Part shown: in pieces, positions 24,702 to 33,656 of the stretch | Layout: every line of letters starts with the position of its first letter | How positions within the stretch are numbered: position 1 is the stretch's first letter | DNA from: Jatrophihabitans sp. | Lineage (GTDB): Bacteria; Actinomycetota; Actinomycetes; Mycobacteriales; Jatrophihabitantaceae | Assembly: GCA_025927835.1 (NCBI GenBank) | Contig: JAICKR010000009.1 | Coordinates: 1 to 39,584 of the forward strand | DNA length: 39,584 nucleotides | Direction: 5' to 3' | Program-made: the position numbers and the translations under genes | The notes under the pieces: model-generated | Databases searched by the model: none | Told to the model about the DNA's origin: nothing | The model's input: the letters and a program-made list of their open reading frames with translations, nothing else

Positions 24702-27700
24702 TCAGCTGCCGAGCTTGCCGTTCCCGGTCGCGGCGAAGTAGTTCACCGTCGCTGCCGTCGACGCGGTGTAGGCGTGTCCCGGGCTCAGGAAGAGCAGGAA
24801 GTAGCTCGACGAGCACGTCGCGACACCGCTCGCGTTCGTGAGCGCCGCGCACGTGGCCCGGAACGTGCCGTTGAACGCCACCAGCACGCTCACCTTGATG
24901 CCGGCCACGGGCAGGTTGTTCGCCGTGTTCGTCACCGTGGTGGTGAACGTGTACTTGTGCAGGTGGTTCGCGTCGGCGGTCGTGTTCGTGTGCGTGTCGA
25001 TGGCGAGCGTCGCCTTCGTGACCGTGAACGGCCCGTTGGCATAGACGACCCGGTAGTTGCTCGCGCCGGTGCCCGCCAGCGACAGCCCGCTGCACGTCTT
25101 CGCGTCGATCGTGTACGTGTTGGCCGCCAGCGACGCGCTGATCGCGACGTTGCCGGTCAGCTTCGTGCAGCTCAATGTCCCGGCGAACGACAACCCGCTG
25201 GGCAGCGTCGCCTGCGGCGTGAACGTCGGCGTGCCGCCGTAGGCCGCGGTGCCGGTCGCGGTCACGGTGACCGGCTTCGGCGTCACGGTGAAGGGACCGT
25301 TGGCGTACAGGATCTGGTAGCCGAAGGCCTGCGTCCCGGTCAGGGTCAGCCCGCTGCACGTCGACGTGTCGACGATGTAGGAACCGACCGGCAGGTTGGC
25401 GTCGATCGGGCTCGGGCCATTCACCTGCGTGCACGTCAGCGTCCCCGTGACGCTCACGTTCGGCGGCGGGGTCGAGATCGGCGTGAAGGTGGGGGTGCCC
25501 TGGTACACCTGGGTGCCCGTCGCCTGCACCTGCAGGTCGGCCTTCGACACGGTGAACGAGCCGCCGCCGAGGACGAGGTGGTAGCTGCTCGCGTTCGGCC
25601 CGGTCACGACGATGCCACCGCAGGTGAGCGGGTCGATCGTGTAGCTGCCCGGCGCCAGCGACGGCTTGATCAGCACGTTGCCCGCGAGGTAGGTGCAGCT
25701 CATCGTCCCCGACAGCGTCACGCCGGCCGGCAGGCTCACCGACGCCACGAACGACGGCGCGCCGCCGAACGTCTGGCTGCCCGAGGCCGTGACGGTGAGG
25801 ACGCCCACCTTCACCTGGAACGTACGCTGCGCCTGCGGCGCCGGCAGGAAGTTGGCGTTGCCGGGCTGGTTCGCGTTCACCGTGCACGCGCCGGCCGCCA
25901 CGATGTGGATCGTGTTCCCGGAGATCGTGCACACCGACGGCGGACCTGCCGAGTAGGTGACGGGCAGGCCGGACGAGGCGGTCGCGGAGATGTTGAAGTC
26001 GGGCGCGCCGAAGGTCTGGTCGCCGATGATCGGGAACGTGATCGTCTGCGGCACCCGGTAGTGCGCGAACAACGTCGTGGTCGTCGGGCCGGGAGCGAGC
26101 AGCGCGGACAGGTCCGTCGACGTGGTCACCTGGGTGCCGCCGGAGGCCGCCGTGTACCAGCCGAGGAAGATTCCGCCGGTCGGCGGGTTCACGATCGGGA
26201 ACGTGGCGCCGGAAGCCAGCGCGGTCGACGCGTACACGTGCACGGGTGCCGGGTTCGGGTCCGGGCCGCCGTTCGTGTCGAAGACCAGCTTGTAGTTGTG
26301 GTGGGACACCGTGACGATGCCGGCCCCGCCGTCGCCGCCGCCCTGGATCGTGCCGCCGCTGCTGAGGAAGATCACGCCGTCGTTCTGCAGCGTCCCGGCG
26401 GTGGCCCCCGCGGTGATCGTGCCCTTGTCGAGGATCGAGCCGGTGCTCGTGTTCGTCGCGGTAGCGCCGGCCGGAATGCGCAGCGTCGCGCCGGACGGAA
26501 TGGTCAGGCCGCCACCGTTGCTCAGCGTGCCGAAGGCGCCACCGGCGCCGCCGGCACCCACGGCACTGGCGCCGCCACCGCCGTCCGCGGCGCTGACCGC
26601 GCCCGGCGAAGCGGTGATCAGCGCGCCCCCCGAGCCGTTACTGCCGCCGCCGATGCCGGCGCCGCTGGAGCCGCCGGCCGCGACGAGCGCGCCACCCGTG
26701 ACGCTGACCGTGCCGCCGCTGCCGCTGCTGTCGCCGCCACCGACGCCGGCCGCGTTGGCGCCGCCGGTGGCCTGCACCGCTCCGCCCGTGACGGACAGGG
26801 AGCCGCCGTTGCTGATTCCGCCGCCGCCGATACCGGACCCGCCGAATCCGCCCTGCGCCACAAGGACCGTCGGCGCGGTCGTCGGATCGGGATCGCCGGA
26901 CACGGTGACGTTGCCGCCGGGTCCGAGATCACCGCCGCCGACACCAGCCCCTTCATGCCCGCCGGTGGCGGTCGTGAGGCCGCCCGAGAAGGTCTCGTTG
27001 CCGCCACCGCCACCGTCGCCGCCGCCGATACCGGACCCGCCGTCGCCGCCGGTAGCCGTCACGTGGCCACCACTCACCGACGTCGTACCGCCGATCCCGG
27101 CCGAGCCGCCGCCGATTCCGGCGCCGGAGGCGCCGCCGGTGGCGGTGATCGAGCCACCCGAGTAATCCTGCGTGCCGCCGGCACCACCCGGCGTCGAGCC
27201 GTTGTTGCCCCCGCCGCCGATACCTGCCGCGTTCGAACCGCCGTGGGCGGTGACCGAGCCGCTGATCACAGAGATCGACGCGGCGTCCTCGGTCTGGTTG
27301 CCGCCGATGCCGGCACCGTTGTCACCGCCGGTGGCATCGAGCGAGCCGAGGCCGGTGGTGTCCTCGACCGTCAGCGACGCTGCGCCCGCGACGCGAATGC
27401 CGGCGAGGTTGGCGTTCACGTTGTTGATGGTGAGCGTCTGGCCGTGCAGGTCCAACGTCTTCGCCAACGTCTGCGAAACATCCGGGTGCGTGCCGTCGCC
27501 GATCGTGACGTTCGCGCCGAGCACGACCGTGTCGTTCGTGCCGTCGGCGAGCGCGGTCTTCAACTGCGCCGCCGTCGTGACGGTCGTCGACACCGCCCCG
27601 GCCGACGGTGCGGCGATGAAGGCGAGCCCGGCGCAGAGCGCGAGCGCCCCGGTCGCGGAGATCCACCGCATGGTGTTGTGGCGAGCGTCGTCACGCGCAA

Positions 27701-27719
27701 CAAGACGATGCTTCGACAT
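24702..27719 (-). CDS. Large secreted adhesin-like protein with Gly-rich, InlB-type and Ig-like repeats
   Basis: 1005 residues. A signal peptide covers about 1-42 (hydrophobic core ALALCAGLAFIAAPSAGA, cleavage near AVS). Residues about 45-125 look like the start of a beta-helix. Residues 130-360 hold eight GAGIGGG-like repeats. A B-repeat of the InlB kind spans about 470-555 (LVFDTNGG ... FLGWYTAASGG). A further Ig-like module spans 557-637, and three MBG-like repeats of about 88 residues (640-903), each with a Cys pair, precede a C-terminal module. No LPXTG or membrane anchor is seen, so it is probably released or held non-covalently. Such parts occur in bacterial adhesins; the ligand is unknown. 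ATG 27719 follows GGGGGCAG. Confidence 0.85.
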   Translation of the reverse strand: MSKHRLVARDDARHNTMRWISATGALALCAGLAFIAAPSAGAVSTTVTTAAQLKTALADGTNDTVVLGANVTIGDGTHPDVSQTLAKTLDLHGQTLTINNVNANLAGIRVAGAASLTVEDTTGLGSLDATGGDNGAGIGGNQTEDAASISVISGSVTAHGGSNAAGIGGGGNNGSTPGGAGGTQDYSGGSITATGGASGAGIGGGSAGIGGTTSVSGGHVTATGGDGGSGIGGGDGGGGGNETFSGGLTTATGGHEGAGVGGGDLGPGGNVTVSGDPDPTTAPTVLVAQGGFGGSGIGGGGISNGGSLSVTGGAVQATGGANAAGVGGGDSSGSGGTVSVTGGALVAAGGSSGAGIGGGSNGSGGALITASPGAVSAADGGGGASAVGAGGAGGAFGTLSNGGGLTIPSGATLRIPAGATATNTSTGSILDKGTITAGATAGTLQNDGVIFLSSGGTIQGGGDGGAGIVTVSHHNYKLVFDTNGGPDPNPAPVHVYASTALASGATFPIVNPPTGGIFLGWYTAASGGTQVTTSTDLSALLAPGPTTTTLFAHYRVPQTITFPIIGDQTFGAPDFNISATASSGLPVTYSAGPPSVCTISGNTIHIVAAGACTVNANQPGNANFLPAPQAQRTFQVKVGVLTVTASGSQTFGGAPSFVASVSLPAGVTLSGTMSCTYLAGNVLIKPSLAPGSYTIDPLTCGGIVVTGPNASSYHLVLGGGSFTVSKADLQVQATGTQVYQGTPTFTPISTPPPNVSVTGTLTCTQVNGPSPIDANLPVGSYIVDTSTCSGLTLTGTQAFGYQILYANGPFTVTPKPVTVTATGTAAYGGTPTFTPQATLPSGLSFAGTLSCTKLTGNVAISASLAANTYTIDAKTCSGLSLAGTGASNYRVVYANGPFTVTKATLAIDTHTNTTADANHLHKYTFTTTVTNTANNLPVAGIKVSVLVAFNGTFRATCAALTNASGVATCSSSYFLLFLSPGHAYTASTAATVNYFAATGNGKLGS
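25011..25802 (-). repeat. Three Ig-like (MBG-type) repeats in the adhesin gene
   Basis: Encodes residues 640-903 as three units of about 88 residues. Each has T-A-x-G-x-Q/A-x-F/Y-x-G-x-P-x-F at its start, S/T-C-T in the middle, a second Cys about 20 residues later (PLTCGG, TSTCSG, AKTCSG) and a closing G-(P/S)-FTV. The two Cys per unit suggest one disulfide each, fitting an exported protein. Confidence 0.8.
26640..27332 (-). repeat. Gly-rich GAGIGGG repeats in the adhesin gene
   Basis: Encodes residues about 130-360. The core A/S-G-I/V-G-G-G recurs near 136, 165, 200, 229, 258, 295, 324 and 354, a period of about 29-30 residues with one 37-residue gap. Between cores runs a T-A-T-G-G turn and a V-S-V-T/S-G-G strand. 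A right-handed beta-helix or a similar solenoid is likely. The repeat gives open frames on the other strand as well. Confidence 0.85.
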
Positions 27720-27935
27720 GTGCTGCCCCCTAGAGCCGGACGAATCCGTGCTGCACCAAATCGAGTCAGTGCACTCTAGGAATCCGACGAAGAACGCGCA
27801 ATTCGTGAATGGCACGCGACGGAATTGTCCGGGTGTAAATGGACGGTGAGTCCGAAACCGCTCGACTTGCCAACTTGGCGCACTTACCCGAATATCGGGC
27901 ATCGGATTTTTCCGGTTGCGCGTTTTGGGGGGTCC
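27720..27935. promoter_or_regulatory. Divergent promoter region between the two giant surface-protein genes
   Basis: The longest gap in the window (216 bp) and less GC-rich than its surroundings. Two short palindromes lie near the + gene: GCCAAcTTGGC (27869-27879) and CCCGAATATCGGG (27887-27899), 7 nt apart, which could be operators. Each gene has a G-rich stretch before its ATG (GGGGGCAG on the minus strand; GGGGGGT on the plus strand) acting as a ribosome binding site. No confident -10/-35 pair was found on either strand. Confidence 0.45.
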
Positions 27936-30900
27936 ATGAAGCGCAAAGCGCTGGTGTCGCTTGTCCTGATCAGCTCGCTCACCGCGTGGGGGCTCAGTTT
28001 CGCGAGCCCGGCATCGGCCAGTGACAGCAGCGGGACACCGCTGACGCCACCGTCCGCGTGCGCGTCTCCCCCGTCGAGCACCGACGCGACACCGGAGAAC
28101 CGCGATCGGTTCGTTCAGCTCTGGACGCCACGCGTCGAGGACAAGTCCTGGTTCAGCCACTTCGTCGGCCTGACGAGTGTGCCGGACGACATCAAGGCCG
28201 AGGGCTTCAACGACATGGACTCCGCGACGCAGGGTTGGCTTGTCGCCTGCCTCGTCGACAAGCTCGTCTCCGACTCGAGCACGTCGTCCAGCCAGACCGA
28301 CATCGCGAACTACCAACTCGCGCTGGACTCGGTGATCTTCGGCAAGAGCGCGCTCGACGAGCTCAAGCACAAGCTCAACGAGGTCCCGCCGACACCGCCG
28401 GGAAGCCCCGGCCCCGATCTGACCAAGGCCGCACTCAACGGCCTGGTCTCGCGGCTCTCCTCGCAGCCGGGCGTGACCTCGGCGTCGCTGCCGCACACCG
28501 ACACGACCCTTGCCGGGCCCACGCTTTCGAGCACGCCGGCGCCCAACCCGGCCGGCACGCAGGCCGGCGGGCGCATCGGTGCGGTGCCGACCCTCGCCCA
28601 CGCGAACGGCCCGCAGCCGCTCGCGCTCGCCAACAGCCTGCAATCGATCATCAACGCCCCGCTCATCCAGCTGGTGCTCACCGCACTCGCCGACCTCGAG
28701 CAACTGATCGCCAACATCCAGGCCAAGCTGTTCACGCTGCCGGTGCTGAACCTGCTGAGCACGCTGTTCTACAAGGTCTGCGCGGAGTCGGCGACGCAGC
28801 CGCTCGCGTGCAGCGTGTCGCTGCCGGTCGGCATCCCGGTGCCGGTCGACGTCAACGGTGACCACTTCCCCGACGTGCTGGCCGACCTCGCGCCGACCGT
28901 TCCGACGGGGCTCGACTTCGGCGTGCAGTTCAACGTGACGCGCCTCGGCGGCACGGGCCCGCTGCCCGCACACATCTTCTTCGTCTATGACATCCCCTTC
29001 GCGAACAAGCGCCTCGAGTTCGGCTACGACGGCCGCGCATCGTCACTCGCCAACGTCACGACGGCGCAGGTCACCGTGAAGAACGTCTTCCAGGCGCTCA
29101 CCGGCGACGTCAACGTGCAGGCGAAGATCAACAGCAACAAGCCGGGTGCGGTCGAGGCACTGACCTTCGCGATCAAGGACCTGGTCGGAGGCTCGGCGGG
29201 ACACCCGCCGACAGAAGCGAACCCGGTCGCGGGCGCGGTGCAGTTCAGCCCGATGCCGACCGCGCTCACCATGGGCGCGCACCTGATCCACAACATCTCG
29301 GACGAGGACATCTTCACCGTCGGGTCGAGCACCCCGTCCACAGTGAGCGCGGTGATCGACCAGGACACCACGACGACGTCACCGCAGAGCCATCGTGAAT
29401 TCACCGCGCTCGTCGACCAGCTGCCGACCTCGGTCAGCGTCGACGTGACGCACGACGGCAAGACGCAGAACATCAGCTACAACGCCAGCGCGCCGATCAA
29501 CCACGTGCAGGCCACCGACACGGCCGTCGGTGACATCAACCATCCCGGCTCGTACACGAGAAGCGTGTACGACGTGCAGGGCGTGCCGAGCTCGGTGAAC
29601 GTCACGCTGAGCGGCGCGCAGGACATCCTGTACTCGGCCAACGCTGTGATCCCGCAGGTCACGTTCTCGACGCAGACCTACCTGGAGTCCGTCCTGCAGC
29701 AGGAGATCACCGCGCAGGCACAAGGCGTGCCGGCCCAGATGCACGTCACGGACGTCACCGGCGATACGTCGACGATCACCTATGACGCTAGTTCGGTGCT
29801 CACCAGCGTCGCGCTGTCGATGTACGACCTGACAATGGACCAGACGAACCTGACCGCGACCGCGACCGGCATCCCGAAGCACATCCAGTTCTTCATGGTG
29901 AAGAGCACCGGTCTGTACGACCTCACAACCGACACCGGAATCTCGCTCATCACCGCGACGCTGACCCGCGGAGGCCCGCCCGGCACGGTGACGATCCTGC
30001 CGGACCCCGGCGTCGATCACGCCACGATCTACAAGCGCGGTACCGAGATCGGCGTCGACTTCCAGCTGTCCGGGTTCACGTCCGCGCACTTCCAGAACAC
30101 CGACGACAAGATGGTCGTCGGGCTCGGGCTGAACCCGGGCGGGCAGGCGTTCGACGCGATCGCCGACCTGGACAGCCCGAACGTGTACGCGACCGCGCAC
30201 ATCACCCAGCTGCCCTCGTCGATCTCGATCACCGACGACGCGAGCACGTCGACGTACACATACAGCGCATCGAGCCCGATCAACGCCGGAATCCCGGGCA
30301 CCCCGGACGTGGCGGCCAGCATCACGCTGCGCCCCGGCACCGACACCACGCTCGATCCCAGTGACGACAACCTGTCCGCCGGCATCACGAACATCCCGGC
30401 GACGATCGCGCTGCAACTCGATTCGGACCACTCGAAGATCGACTGGAACGCGTCCGACGACACCGGCAAGGTCGAGGTGTCCGCGCACCTCAGCGCGGCC
30501 ACGCTCGGCCTGGACCGCGGCATCGACGCAGGGCTGACGATCACCGACATCCCGGCGACGTGGAGCGCGACGTACGGCGACGGCAACGTCGACTTCAACG
30601 CGCCGACTCCCGGCATCGGCAGCATCGACGCATGGGTCACCAACCACGGCACGCCCGAGACGGATACCGGCGACTTCCTCGGCGCGTTCTTCGACGAGCC
30701 GAGCGGCGACCTCGATGCCGCGCTGCACATCAGCAACCTGCAGCGGGCGCACTTCGAGAAGATCACCGACGTGCACGGCGGCGGGTTCACCGCCGACCTG
30801 GACATGGGCAACCACAGCAACTTCGACTTCTTCGCGACGGTCAATCTCGGTTCGCCGACCGTCACGACGAAGCTCACCGCCACGGGCAGCCTTGACCCGC

Positions 30901-32489
30901 TGCCGGCGTCGATCCACCTCCAGAGCGACGGCGGGCGGATCCGCTACACCGGCGACACCAACCCGACGCTGACCCTGTCGGTCGGCGCGGGTGACCCGGC
31001 TGCACTCGCCGGCATCGGCCCGCTCGCGATGCCGGTCCAGGGCGTGATCCTTCGGGACGGTGGCAGCAGCTCCGCACCGGCGGTCGCCGCCACGTTGAAG
31101 CTGACCGGACTGCCCGACTCGCTCGACCTCAACACGCCGGCCGGCACCTACACCGTGGGCAACTTCGCCCCGACCACGCCGGTCATCACGGTCGACGCCG
31201 TCCTGAACACCATCGCGGCGCAACCGCTAAGCATCGCGTTGAGCCAGGACACGAGCAACCCGAGCGGCCCCAACACCCCGATCTCGTTCGTGTTCGGTCC
31301 GTTCGTCTCCTCGACCGACGGCGACGGCACGCACCACATGGGCGTCAACTACACCGCGAGCCGGGACATGAACGCGTTCGACGCAGAGGTCACCTACGGC
31401 CACAGCGACGACGCGATGCTGCACATCAGCAACATCCCGGGCGGGGCCGCGCCGTCGATCAGTGTCAACACCGCGTTCGGCGACACCGACACGGTCGACG
31501 TCGACATGACGCGCGGCATCGCACAGATCACGGCGTCCTACCGGCACGTCGGCGACACGACGTTCGGCGGCTCCGTCGATCTGACGAACGTGCCGAGTTC
31601 GGTGCACCTGAAGTTGGGCAGCCAGACGAACAGCACGACGGACTCCGACGGCACCAAGGGCGCGACCGCCCCTGAGTTCACGTTCACCGCCAGTGCGCCG
31701 CACATGAACATCGACGCGTTCGCGAACGCGAGCATCGTCAACGCCAGCGCGGCCGTCACGTTGAAGATCGAGGACATGGGCTCGACGATCACCGGTGACC
31801 TCCAGGGCACGACGTTGAACATCACATCGACGCCCAACACCGGGCTGTTCATGATCGACGCCACGGCGAAGGTGCACATCGACGTCGACCTCGGCTTCAG
31901 CTTCGGGCCGTTCGTCAACACCGGCACGCTCGGCATCGATATCGACGTCCGGGACATCACCGTCAAGTTCACGGACTTCAGCTCGATCGGGCTGGCGCTC
32001 GGCGTCACCACGGGATTGACGGGTCACTTCGCCACGTTCACCTTCGGGCTCGACCTGAACATCACGCTGAGCATCCTCGACAACCTGGACTTCGACTTCT
32101 CGTTGCCGATCATCGGCGACGAGAGCTTCAACCTGGTGTCGCTGCACGACCCGAGCGACGACAGCAGGCCGTTGGTCATTCCGTTCGACGACGTGGTCCC
32201 GAGCTGGCACATCCAGACGAACACGTTCGACACCATCTTCAGCCTGCCGGTGTTCGAGATCCCGTTCATCATCGAGTGCCACGTGGGCGTCAAGACCCGG
32301 CCGGGCCCCGGCCACGACGTGGGATCACCGTTCACGCTGACCGGGCCGCCGCCGTCGGACGGGAACGACCCGCCGGCCTACCTGATCACGCCGGGCGTGT
32401 TCGGCCTCTCCGGCTTCATCATGGACATAATCGGCTTCTTCGAGTCGCCTTACGGCAACGACATCGAGCCGGACATCGGCTGCAGCTGA
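27936..32489 (+). CDS. Giant secreted protein made of a degenerate beta repeat, function unknown
   Basis: 1517 residues. Signal peptide 1-29 (MKRK then a hydrophobic core, ASPASAS|D). Residues 30-200 form a helical, Ser/Pro-rich region. Residues 235-275 are hydrophobic and amphipathic. Residues 300-330 contain DVNGDHFPDVLADL, a calcium-type DxNxDxxxD loop. From about 436 to 1280 a degenerate unit of 48-70 residues recurs, centred on (L/I/V)P(S/A)(S/T)(I/V) and, about 20-25 residues later, Y-x-A-S. The end (1300-1517) is beta-rich with alternate polar and hydrophobic residues, and has two Cys. No anchor motif or named domain is recognised. It is divergent from the adhesin gene and converges on a lipoprotein gene with a 3-bp gap, so a role at the cell surface is likely. 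Confidence 0.8.
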   Translation: MKRKALVSLVLISSLTAWGLSFASPASASDSSGTPLTPPSACASPPSSTDATPENRDRFVQLWTPRVEDKSWFSHFVGLTSVPDDIKAEGFNDMDSATQGWLVACLVDKLVSDSSTSSSQTDIANYQLALDSVIFGKSALDELKHKLNEVPPTPPGSPGPDLTKAALNGLVSRLSSQPGVTSASLPHTDTTLAGPTLSSTPAPNPAGTQAGGRIGAVPTLAHANGPQPLALANSLQSIINAPLIQLVLTALADLEQLIANIQAKLFTLPVLNLLSTLFYKVCAESATQPLACSVSLPVGIPVPVDVNGDHFPDVLADLAPTVPTGLDFGVQFNVTRLGGTGPLPAHIFFVYDIPFANKRLEFGYDGRASSLANVTTAQVTVKNVFQALTGDVNVQAKINSNKPGAVEALTFAIKDLVGGSAGHPPTEANPVAGAVQFSPMPTALTMGAHLIHNISDEDIFTVGSSTPSTVSAVIDQDTTTTSPQSHREFTALVDQLPTSVSVDVTHDGKTQNISYNASAPINHVQATDTAVGDINHPGSYTRSVYDVQGVPSSVNVTLSGAQDILYSANAVIPQVTFSTQTYLESVLQQEITAQAQGVPAQMHVTDVTGDTSTITYDASSVLTSVALSMYDLTMDQTNLTATATGIPKHIQFFMVKSTGLYDLTTDTGISLITATLTRGGPPGTVTILPDPGVDHATIYKRGTEIGVDFQLSGFTSAHFQNTDDKMVVGLGLNPGGQAFDAIADLDSPNVYATAHITQLPSSISITDDASTSTYTYSASSPINAGIPGTPDVAASITLRPGTDTTLDPSDDNLSAGITNIPATIALQLDSDHSKIDWNASDDTGKVEVSAHLSAATLGLDRGIDAGLTITDIPATWSATYGDGNVDFNAPTPGIGSIDAWVTNHGTPETDTGDFLGAFFDEPSGDLDAALHISNLQRAHFEKITDVHGGGFTADLDMGNHSNFDFFATVNLGSPTVTTKLTATGSLDPLPASIHLQSDGGRIRYTGDTNPTLTLSVGAGDPAALAGIGPLAMPVQGVILRDGGSSSAPAVAATLKLTGLPDSLDLNTPAGTYTVGNFAPTTPVITVDAVLNTIAAQPLSIALSQDTSNPSGPNTPISFVFGPFVSSTDGDGTHHMGVNYTASRDMNAFDAEVTYGHSDDAMLHISNIPGGAAPSISVNTAFGDTDTVDVDMTRGIAQITASYRHVGDTTFGGSVDLTNVPSSVHLKLGSQTNSTTDSDGTKGATAPEFTFTASAPHMNIDAFANASIVNASAAVTLKIEDMGSTITGDLQGTTLNITSTPNTGLFMIDATAKVHIDVDLGFSFGPFVNTGTLGIDIDVRDITVKFTDFSSIGLALGVTTGLTGHFATFTFGLDLNITLSILDNLDFDFSLPIIGDESFNLVSLHDPSDDSRPLVIPFDDVVPSWHIQTNTFDTIFSLPVFEIPFIIECHVGVKTRPGPGHDVGSPFTLTGPPPSDGNDPPAYLITPGVFGLSGFIMDIIGFFESPYGNDIEPDIGCS
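29403..31760 (+). repeat. Array of degenerate LPSSI-type beta repeats in the giant protein
   Basis: Encodes residues about 490-1275. The anchor (L/I/V)P(S/A/T)(S/T)(I/V/L) is seen at residues 496, 550, 759, 820, 872, 989, 1059 and 1219, and weaker forms at 598 (VPAQM) and 646 (IPKHI). Units at about 712 (FTSAHF) and 935 (LQRAHF) have lost the motif but keep the spacing. The nucleotide sequences are not alike, so the repeats are old or strongly diverged. Confidence 0.7.
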
Positions 32490-32492
32490 GCG

Positions 32493-33614
32493 CTACCAGA
32501 CGGAGACCTCGGCGAGCAGGCTCTCGTCCAGTCCGCCCGGTGACCGCACCCGCACGTAGCGGGCCTGCGGCTCCCCGGGCGGGCTGAGGGCGATGGTCGG
32601 GCCCGTCGCGGTGGCGACCCGCGTCCAGGTGTGGCTGTCCGCCGAGATCTCGATGACCACCGTGCCGGCGACGCCGCGCACCACGATGAGCGAGACGCGG
32701 CGCGCCTGACCGACCAGATCGACGAGCACCCCGGTGACGACCTTGCCGTTGCCGGCGACGAGGTGGGACGGCGACTCGAGATCACCGTCGGTGGCGACGC
32801 ACACGGTCTGCCGGAACCGCTCCAGCGGCGGTGCCGCGCCGGTGAGCGCGTAGCAGGGCCGCTGCCGCGACGGCGGGGTCCCGGCCGTCGGCCGCAGCGC
32901 CCGGCGCGAGGACAGGTAGACCGCGTGCACGCCGTGCCCGAGATCGCTGCGCGCAGTCACCGCAGCCTGGGCGGCGTGGTCCTCGAGAACGCGAGCATCG
33001 ACCTGCGTGTGGGTGCCGGCCGCGGACTGCGTCCAGAGCGAGGCGCCGCGTGCGCTGTCGAGCAGTTGCGCGGAGTAGTCGGTATCGGCACCGCGCAGCG
33101 CACGCCACGACATGCGGAAGCGGGGCGGTCCGGACGTCGTCGGGGCGACCTGCAGGCCCGCGTCCCACAGCCGCGCGGCGGGAAGCCGCACGGTGTTCTG
33201 CTGCACCTTGAACCGCAGCGTCGTGCTGGCGGCGGCGTGGGCGCCCTTCGGGTCGGCGAACACGACGTCGATCGTGTCGGCGTTGCCGGCGATGCCCTGC
33301 GTGTCGGAGCCCTTGATGCGGAACCGGAAGGTGCCGTTGCCATCGGTGGTCGCCGTGAAGCCCTTGCGGCAGATGGCCGGCGCGGCGGGGAACAGGCAGA
33401 CGCCGCCGAGCGTGCCCAGCGTGAGCGCGGAGCCGACGAGGAACTCGCCGAAGTCGGCCTCCTTGTACAGGTGCACCTGCACCTTGCTCAGCGGGGCACC
33501 GGTCGCGCTGAGCGCGCGTCCGGTGATCACCACCGCCGCCCCCGGCTTCACATGACTGACGTCGCAGCCGGCCGCGACGAGCATGGCGACCAGGACGAGT
33601 GCCCACCTCCGCAT
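32493..33614 (-). CDS. Lipoprotein with carboxypeptidase-regulatory-like and F5/8-like domains
   Basis: A 373-residue exported protein. MRRWALVLVAMLVAAGCD has a clear lipobox (LVAAGC), so it is probably lipid-anchored. Residues 30-145 resemble a carboxypeptidase-regulatory/transthyretin-like fold (VVITGRALSATGAPLSKVQVHLY ... TATTDGNGTFRFRIKG) with an inserted Cys pair. A middle region of unknown type follows. The last ~100 residues resemble a discoidin/F5/8 type C fold (VIEISADSHTWTRVATATG ... ARYVRVRSPGG), which binds sugars or membranes. The closing convergent gap to the giant protein is 3 bp. ATG 33614 is supported by TATCCT 6 nt upstream. Confidence 0.8.
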   Translation of the reverse strand: MRRWALVLVAMLVAAGCDVSHVKPGAAVVITGRALSATGAPLSKVQVHLYKEADFGEFLVGSALTLGTLGGVCLFPAAPAICRKGFTATTDGNGTFRFRIKGSDTQGIAGNADTIDVVFADPKGAHAAASTTLRFKVQQNTVRLPAARLWDAGLQVAPTTSGPPRFRMSWRALRGADTDYSAQLLDSARGASLWTQSAAGTHTQVDARVLEDHAAQAAVTARSDLGHGVHAVYLSSRRALRPTAGTPPSRQRPCYALTGAAPPLERFRQTVCVATDGDLESPSHLVAGNGKVVTGVLVDLVGQARRVSLIVVRGVAGTVVIEISADSHTWTRVATATGPTIALSPPGEPQARYVRVRSPGGLDESLLAEVSVW

Positions 33615-33620
33615 GCGAGA

Positions 33621-33626
33621 AGGATA
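33621..33626 (-). promoter_or_regulatory. Putative -10 element for the leaderless lipoprotein gene
   Basis: TATCCT with 6 nt to ATG 33614, close to the TATAAT consensus. The divergent amidase start is 56 bp away. Confidence 0.6.
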
Positions 33627-33656
33627 GGTGCGCAGCACTCTTGCGACGGTGAGCGT

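Follow-up and report, generated by a model that had tools for sequence, protein, structure and literature searches.

The window analysed here, 39,584 bases in length, is a whole contig of a MAG (G000, 76% complete) from a soil-type actinobacterium, and at 27936-32489 on its plus strand lies the gene of a 1517-aa secreted beta-repeat protein. The frame, opened by an ATG at 27936 and closed by a stop codon that ends at 32489, runs uninterrupted for 1517 codons, is directly preceded by a G-rich, ribosome-binding-like GGGGGG, and has an orthologue in the MAG RYN_117. As read from the sequence, the N-terminus of the protein (MKRKALVSLVLISSLTAWGLSFASPASA-SD) is a textbook signal peptide of residues ~1-29 (27936-28022, +) with n-, h- and c-regions and a cleavage-like ASA-SD site, which confirmed the initial annotation of a 1517-residue secreted protein with a clear signal peptide. 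A surface location, also proposed there, is an inference, as the protein has this signal but neither an LPxTG motif nor a membrane anchor was found in it. No promoter was found in a sigma-70 promoter scan and Rfam gave no match. The two palindromes pointed out upstream proved to be trivial 6-bp self-complementary words, and the upstream DNA has no visible conservation against the orthologues.

Both adjoining genes are on the minus strand. Convergent with the repeat gene is a lipoprotein-like gene (32496-33638, -), a possible partner whose 52%-identity homologue is likewise convergent with the RYN_117 orthologue (locus L006); the window copy had no Pfam match, and the RYN_117 copy gave weak TTR-like and lipoprotein-site matches. 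The divergent upstream gene (24702-27719, -) is an open frame for a 1005-aa secreted protein with weak matches to pectate-lyase-like adhesive and Listeria-Bacteroides repeat domains. Glycine-rich repeats, and three MBG-like repeats near the C-terminus, were also seen in this protein. The long plus-strand frame at 24774-27779 was rejected as a gene, being the antisense shadow of this real minus-strand gene.

The initial annotation had described a degenerate repeat in which (L/I/V)P(S/A)(S/T)(I/V) is followed by YxAS. This motif is real: the strict pattern occurred 6 times, whereas shuffled copies contained it 0.35 times on average. An iterated 49-column repeat profile located nine units within residues 485-1267, in agreement with the claim of at least eight clear copies between residues 490 and 1280, and the same profile found 84 units in ten family proteins and 0 in 200 shuffled proteins. 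Units 1-4 stand in tandem (residues 485-533, 539-582, 587-633 and 635-681; 29388-29978, +) and, like units 5-7 (748-801, 809-855 and 861-906; 30177-30653, +), were recognized by the profile and in both structural models described below, while unit 8 (978-1021; 30867-30998, +) and unit 9 (1208-1267; 31557-31736, +), the latter with a long B-C loop, were recognized by the profile. In the consensus, xLxAxAxLTGLPAxVDVxLD...GxVDYTASAPIGSIDAAVTN, the turns between strands A and B (GLP) and between C and D (ASxPIG) are conserved and the B-C and D-A loops are variable. The core of the unit has 49 residues, and the length of 48-70 residues given earlier is a product of the variable loops. For a non-circular check of the repeats, a hold-out profile was trained on distant relatives only (Thermocatellispora, G164, G165, G790, G408, G515 and G902). 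It matched the window protein as a whole at E=3e-37 and found 8 of the 9 units individually (E 1e-9 to 1e-3, all <2e-3), with 0 hits at E<0.1 in shuffled sequences and 1 at E<0.01 in reversed sequences across six proteins.

AlphaFold2 models were obtained for residues 430-910 (481 aa; pLDDT 88.9, pTM 0.81, five models all at 85-89) and, from an alignment with eight homologues, for residues 262-1461. The latter, of 1200 residues, was all beta with a mean pLDDT of 80 and a pTM of 0.58, and was poor only at its start and beyond residue ~1356. Both models place four antiparallel strands in each unit at a regular period, with lengths of ~11 (A), ~8 (B), ~7 (C) and ~10 (D) residues. All four strands are amphipathic, hydrophobic on one face and polar on the other: the inward positions are 52% VILM, 14% FYW, 24% A/G and <4% charged, and the outward positions are 40% STNQ and 35% charged. 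The predicted fold of the repeat protein is well supported by these models. A rod, a solenoid or a groove had been suggested for it earlier; the repeated beta fold was recovered, and a solenoid (parallel beta helix) is disfavoured, because the strand alternation and turns of the model look like those of an antiparallel meander and every weak Foldseek match is antiparallel.

Three further domains surround the repeats. An N-terminal Cys-containing domain (residues ~42-151; 28059-28388, +), probably helical judging from its sequence, is conserved only in the near relatives RYN_117, G722 and, weakly, RYN_142, and the 63-residue spacing of C42 and C105 is kept in RYN_117 and G722. A head domain (residues ~274-483; 28755-29385, +), whose profile, A5, recovers members throughout the phylum, carries C282 and C292, then the calcium-loop-like motif DVNGDHFPDV (305-314) and then FGYDG. 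Among the six nearer members, D305, G308, D309 and D313 as well as C282 and C292, 10 residues apart, are invariant, and the loop is recognizable but degenerate in more distant members. The C-terminal cap (residues ~1356-1517; 32001-32486, +), modelled at low pLDDT, contains C1448 and C1516 and ends in a conserved Cys; this pair, with 68-72-residue spacing, occurs in the window protein, RYN_117, G722, Thermocatellispora and G790. The spacings kept at 42/105, 282/292 and 1448/1516 would fit three disulfides in an exported protein. Family-wide, the shared features are the head domain (a D-x-x-G-D...D loop, then G-(Y/F)-D) and the repeats, and conserved cysteine pairs are a feature of the nearer relatives.

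Searches of Pfam, NCBIfam, PHROGs and the PDB by sequence returned nothing significant for the 1517-aa protein. Foldseek against the PDB gave no match at E<=0.001 for the 481-residue model and no solved structure of matching shape (best TM 0.16), which is not proof of a new fold, since Foldseek is poor on very long flexible sheets. Its weak matches were antiparallel sheets and barrels, including ApoB100, vitellogenin, hollow barrels and teneurin shells, and not adhesin stalks, with ApoB100 and teneurin matching the long model at TM <0.1; BFVD gave one weak phage tail-fibre match and some MORN proteins. The initial annotation, which recognized no named family and would have fallen with a profile match along the repeats or a model with no repeated fold, held on each of these points, as neither sequence nor fold searches gave anything convincing, no profile matched along the repeats and the model shows a repeated fold. 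Because no curated family or solved structure covers the protein, it represents a new, unnamed family, for which it had been proposed as a candidate, of a known broad kind, that of large secreted beta-repeat proteins. Actinobacteria commonly have large secreted repeat proteins. A new repeat fold is a possibility raised by the models.

The nearest named relatives come from two MAGs, RYN_117 (Pseudonocardiales bacterium), with a full-length orthologue of 57% identity, and RYN_142 (Jatrophihabitans sp.), with a partial orthologue of 29% identity; G722 encodes a compact orthologue. More distant members were found in Thermocatellispora tengchongensis, Nonomuraea gerenzanensis, G164, G165, G790 and G825, and the A5 profile added members elsewhere in the phylum (G408, G437, G515, G678 and G1099). 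A search of genome contigs found no relative with the single protein as query and three with the alignment as query. Counting the window's own genome, 6 of 396 genomes were positive in the sampling of Actinomycetota and 3 of 24 in the bacterial-family sampling, indicating a patchy presence. Members thus occur sporadically across the phylum, a wider range than the initial annotation could see, and a genome that has one often has several paralogues. The own genome holds at least two copies, G408 and G437 at least three each, and G515 at least two giants; copy and member counts are lower bounds, because in each genome only a few candidates are scored by the first-look search. The second copy of the own genome, on contig 49 (L030 3546-15758, -), is a giant paralogue of 4071 aa that has the head and the repeats in common with the window protein and carries bacterial Ig-like domains at its C-terminus. 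A giant similar to it was seen in G515 as a 3164-aa frame. The weak genome matches G333, G669 and G082 were left out of the family, and that in G826, which is without repeats, looks spurious.

At the other loci, the lipoprotein neighbours are not the same from lineage to lineage. The RYN_117 and G722 loci have in common another, different small lipoprotein. The stop codon of the family gene is overlapped or abutted, in both G164 and G165, by a small gene for a secreted or lipoprotein-like product (L025 4784-5272, -; L026 13746-14180, +); these two genes are homologous to each other, have weak Ig-like matches and may encode a partner of the family protein. In G437, two members lie within a same-strand run of genes for signal-peptide, NHL and Ig-like proteins. 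A secreted protein of this cluster (L084 8831-9826) resembles by eye the N-terminus of the G902 member (L054 3911-4400) in xxGxTVSGxVxIxExRGGQ, a likeness that suggests another shared extracellular domain. A PEMT (phospholipid methyltransferase) gene was observed just upstream in Nonomuraea (L077 4929-5432) and G790 (L052 3790-4317), whose loci are syntenic in general, beyond this gene. Taken together, these neighbours point to the outside of the cell but not to a particular function.

As to the function of the 1517-aa protein, we infer, with a probability of roughly 0.45, that it serves outside the cell as an elongated scaffold, part of the surface or of the matrix, such as a spacer or an adhesive rod. 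The repeat, the family, the secretion signal, the conserved Cys pairs and the beta topology are supported by prediction and alignment. On such a scaffold, the head domain, whose calcium-loop-like motif may bind calcium, would start the meander, the bulk of the protein would be one very long antiparallel beta meander of 49-residue, four-strand repeats, and the Cys-paired cap would end it. With one hydrophobic and one polar face on each strand, the sheet would be expected to curl up so that the hydrophobic residues lie inside a trough, tube or rod. The secreted protein would probably be stabilised by disulfides, and the neighbouring lipoproteins perhaps hold the rod. An extracellular rod with a structural or adhesive role is favoured by the secretion signal, the paired cysteines, the Ig-domain giants and the neighbours of extracellular type, and the patchy presence fits an accessory surface trait. 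Against the scaffold, a strictly one-sided hydrophobic face is also what one would expect of a groove for lipid or hydrophobic cargo. The structures ranked highest by Foldseek, all of them weakly matched, are lipid carriers, hollow barrels and teneurin shells, and the lipoprotein neighbours vary between lineages.

The main rival, kept in play by the hydrophobic side of the sheet, is a carrier of lipids or other hydrophobic ligands. Here the amphipathic sheet would make up a long and open groove in which lipids are held or conducted outside the membrane, as in bridge-like (repeating beta-groove) proteins or the beta sheets of ApoB and vitellogenin. We regard this carrier as rather unlikely. Each of the four strands is amphipathic, and charge is almost absent from the inner face; this strongly hydrophobic face could belong to an open groove or to a closed shape. 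Nearly a quarter of the inner residues are Ala or Gly, suggesting close packing. ApoB100 was the top weak PDB match of the long model and vitellogenin a lower one of the shorter model, whereas VPS13, ATG2 and TamB structures were absent among the matches listed, and no chorein or AsmA/TamB-type domain was matched in Pfam up to E=5. The upstream PEMT gene in Nonomuraea and G790 is consistent with lipid carriage, though these loci are syntenic anyway; several relatives, for example in Streptosporangiales, belong to lineages in which no second membrane is known to which they could bridge. In the repeating beta-groove unit, an unstructured loop comes after five antiparallel strands (PMC12066543), whereas both models show four strands per 49-aa unit. 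The protein may still work like beta-groove proteins. Somewhat less probable again is an undescribed repeat fold in which secreted four-strand units would build a single-layer, amphipathic trough or tube of beta sheet, holding or conducting lipids or other hydrophobic molecules outside the actinobacterial membrane. If true, such a lipid trough would be the bacterial, extracellular equivalent of the bridge-like or ApoB-type lipid proteins, and would be new for actinobacteria.

Two readings are less likely than lipid carriage. Tandem independent small beta domains, Ig-like or YbbR-like, would make an ordinary adhesin stalk of divergent sequence, but the YbbR-type matches that suggest it are very weak (Pfam E=3.9, below the cut-off; PDB 5hqh E=0.45), no Ig-like or YbbR structure was among the best 50 Foldseek matches in either search, the fold matches are long single-chain meanders, and a pTM of 0.81 over 481 residues is unlike a flexible bead chain; we consider such a chain improbable. 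Least likely is a teneurin/RHS YD-repeat-like shell, in which the meander would spiral into a hollow cocoon enclosing a cargo domain. Teneurin headed the weak matches of the 481-residue model and ranked near the top for the long one, and neighbours show weak TTR-like and NHL domains, both of them present in teneurins too. However, the Foldseek probability was 0.07-0.08 with TM 0.03-0.08, neither a YD consensus, an RHS/YD match in Pfam nor a variable C-terminal effector was found, and the C-terminus, which closes with a paired Cys, is conserved.

The 1517-aa protein defines an unnamed family spread over the phylum, and no solved structure matched its confidently predicted architecture. With VPS13, ATG2 and TamB/AsmA it shares a long run of amphipathic antiparallel strands, a hydrophobic face and many repeats per chain, and differs in its four strands, its lack of a unit-ending loop and of chorein/AsmA domains, and its secretion. 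The ApoB100 and vitellogenin sheets are likewise extended, antiparallel and one-sided and headed the weak fold matches of the long model, but at TM 0.03-0.11 and without sequence similarity. Teneurin/RHS shells resemble it in a weak fold match and hairpin-based antiparallel repeats, and differ in having the YD motif and effector domain, the Foldseek probability being negligible. The likeness to the extracellular repeats of YbbR/CdaR is a faint sequence match at residues 540-604, not significant (E=0.45 to 3.9) and with a different repeat length. Compared with fibrillar adhesins with repeat stalks (PMC9210967), it has no known stalk or adhesive domain (no Pfam match above threshold) and no LPxTG wall anchor, and forms a continuous meander instead of bead-like domains; like them, it is a large secreted repetitive beta protein with a patchy distribution and extracellular neighbours.
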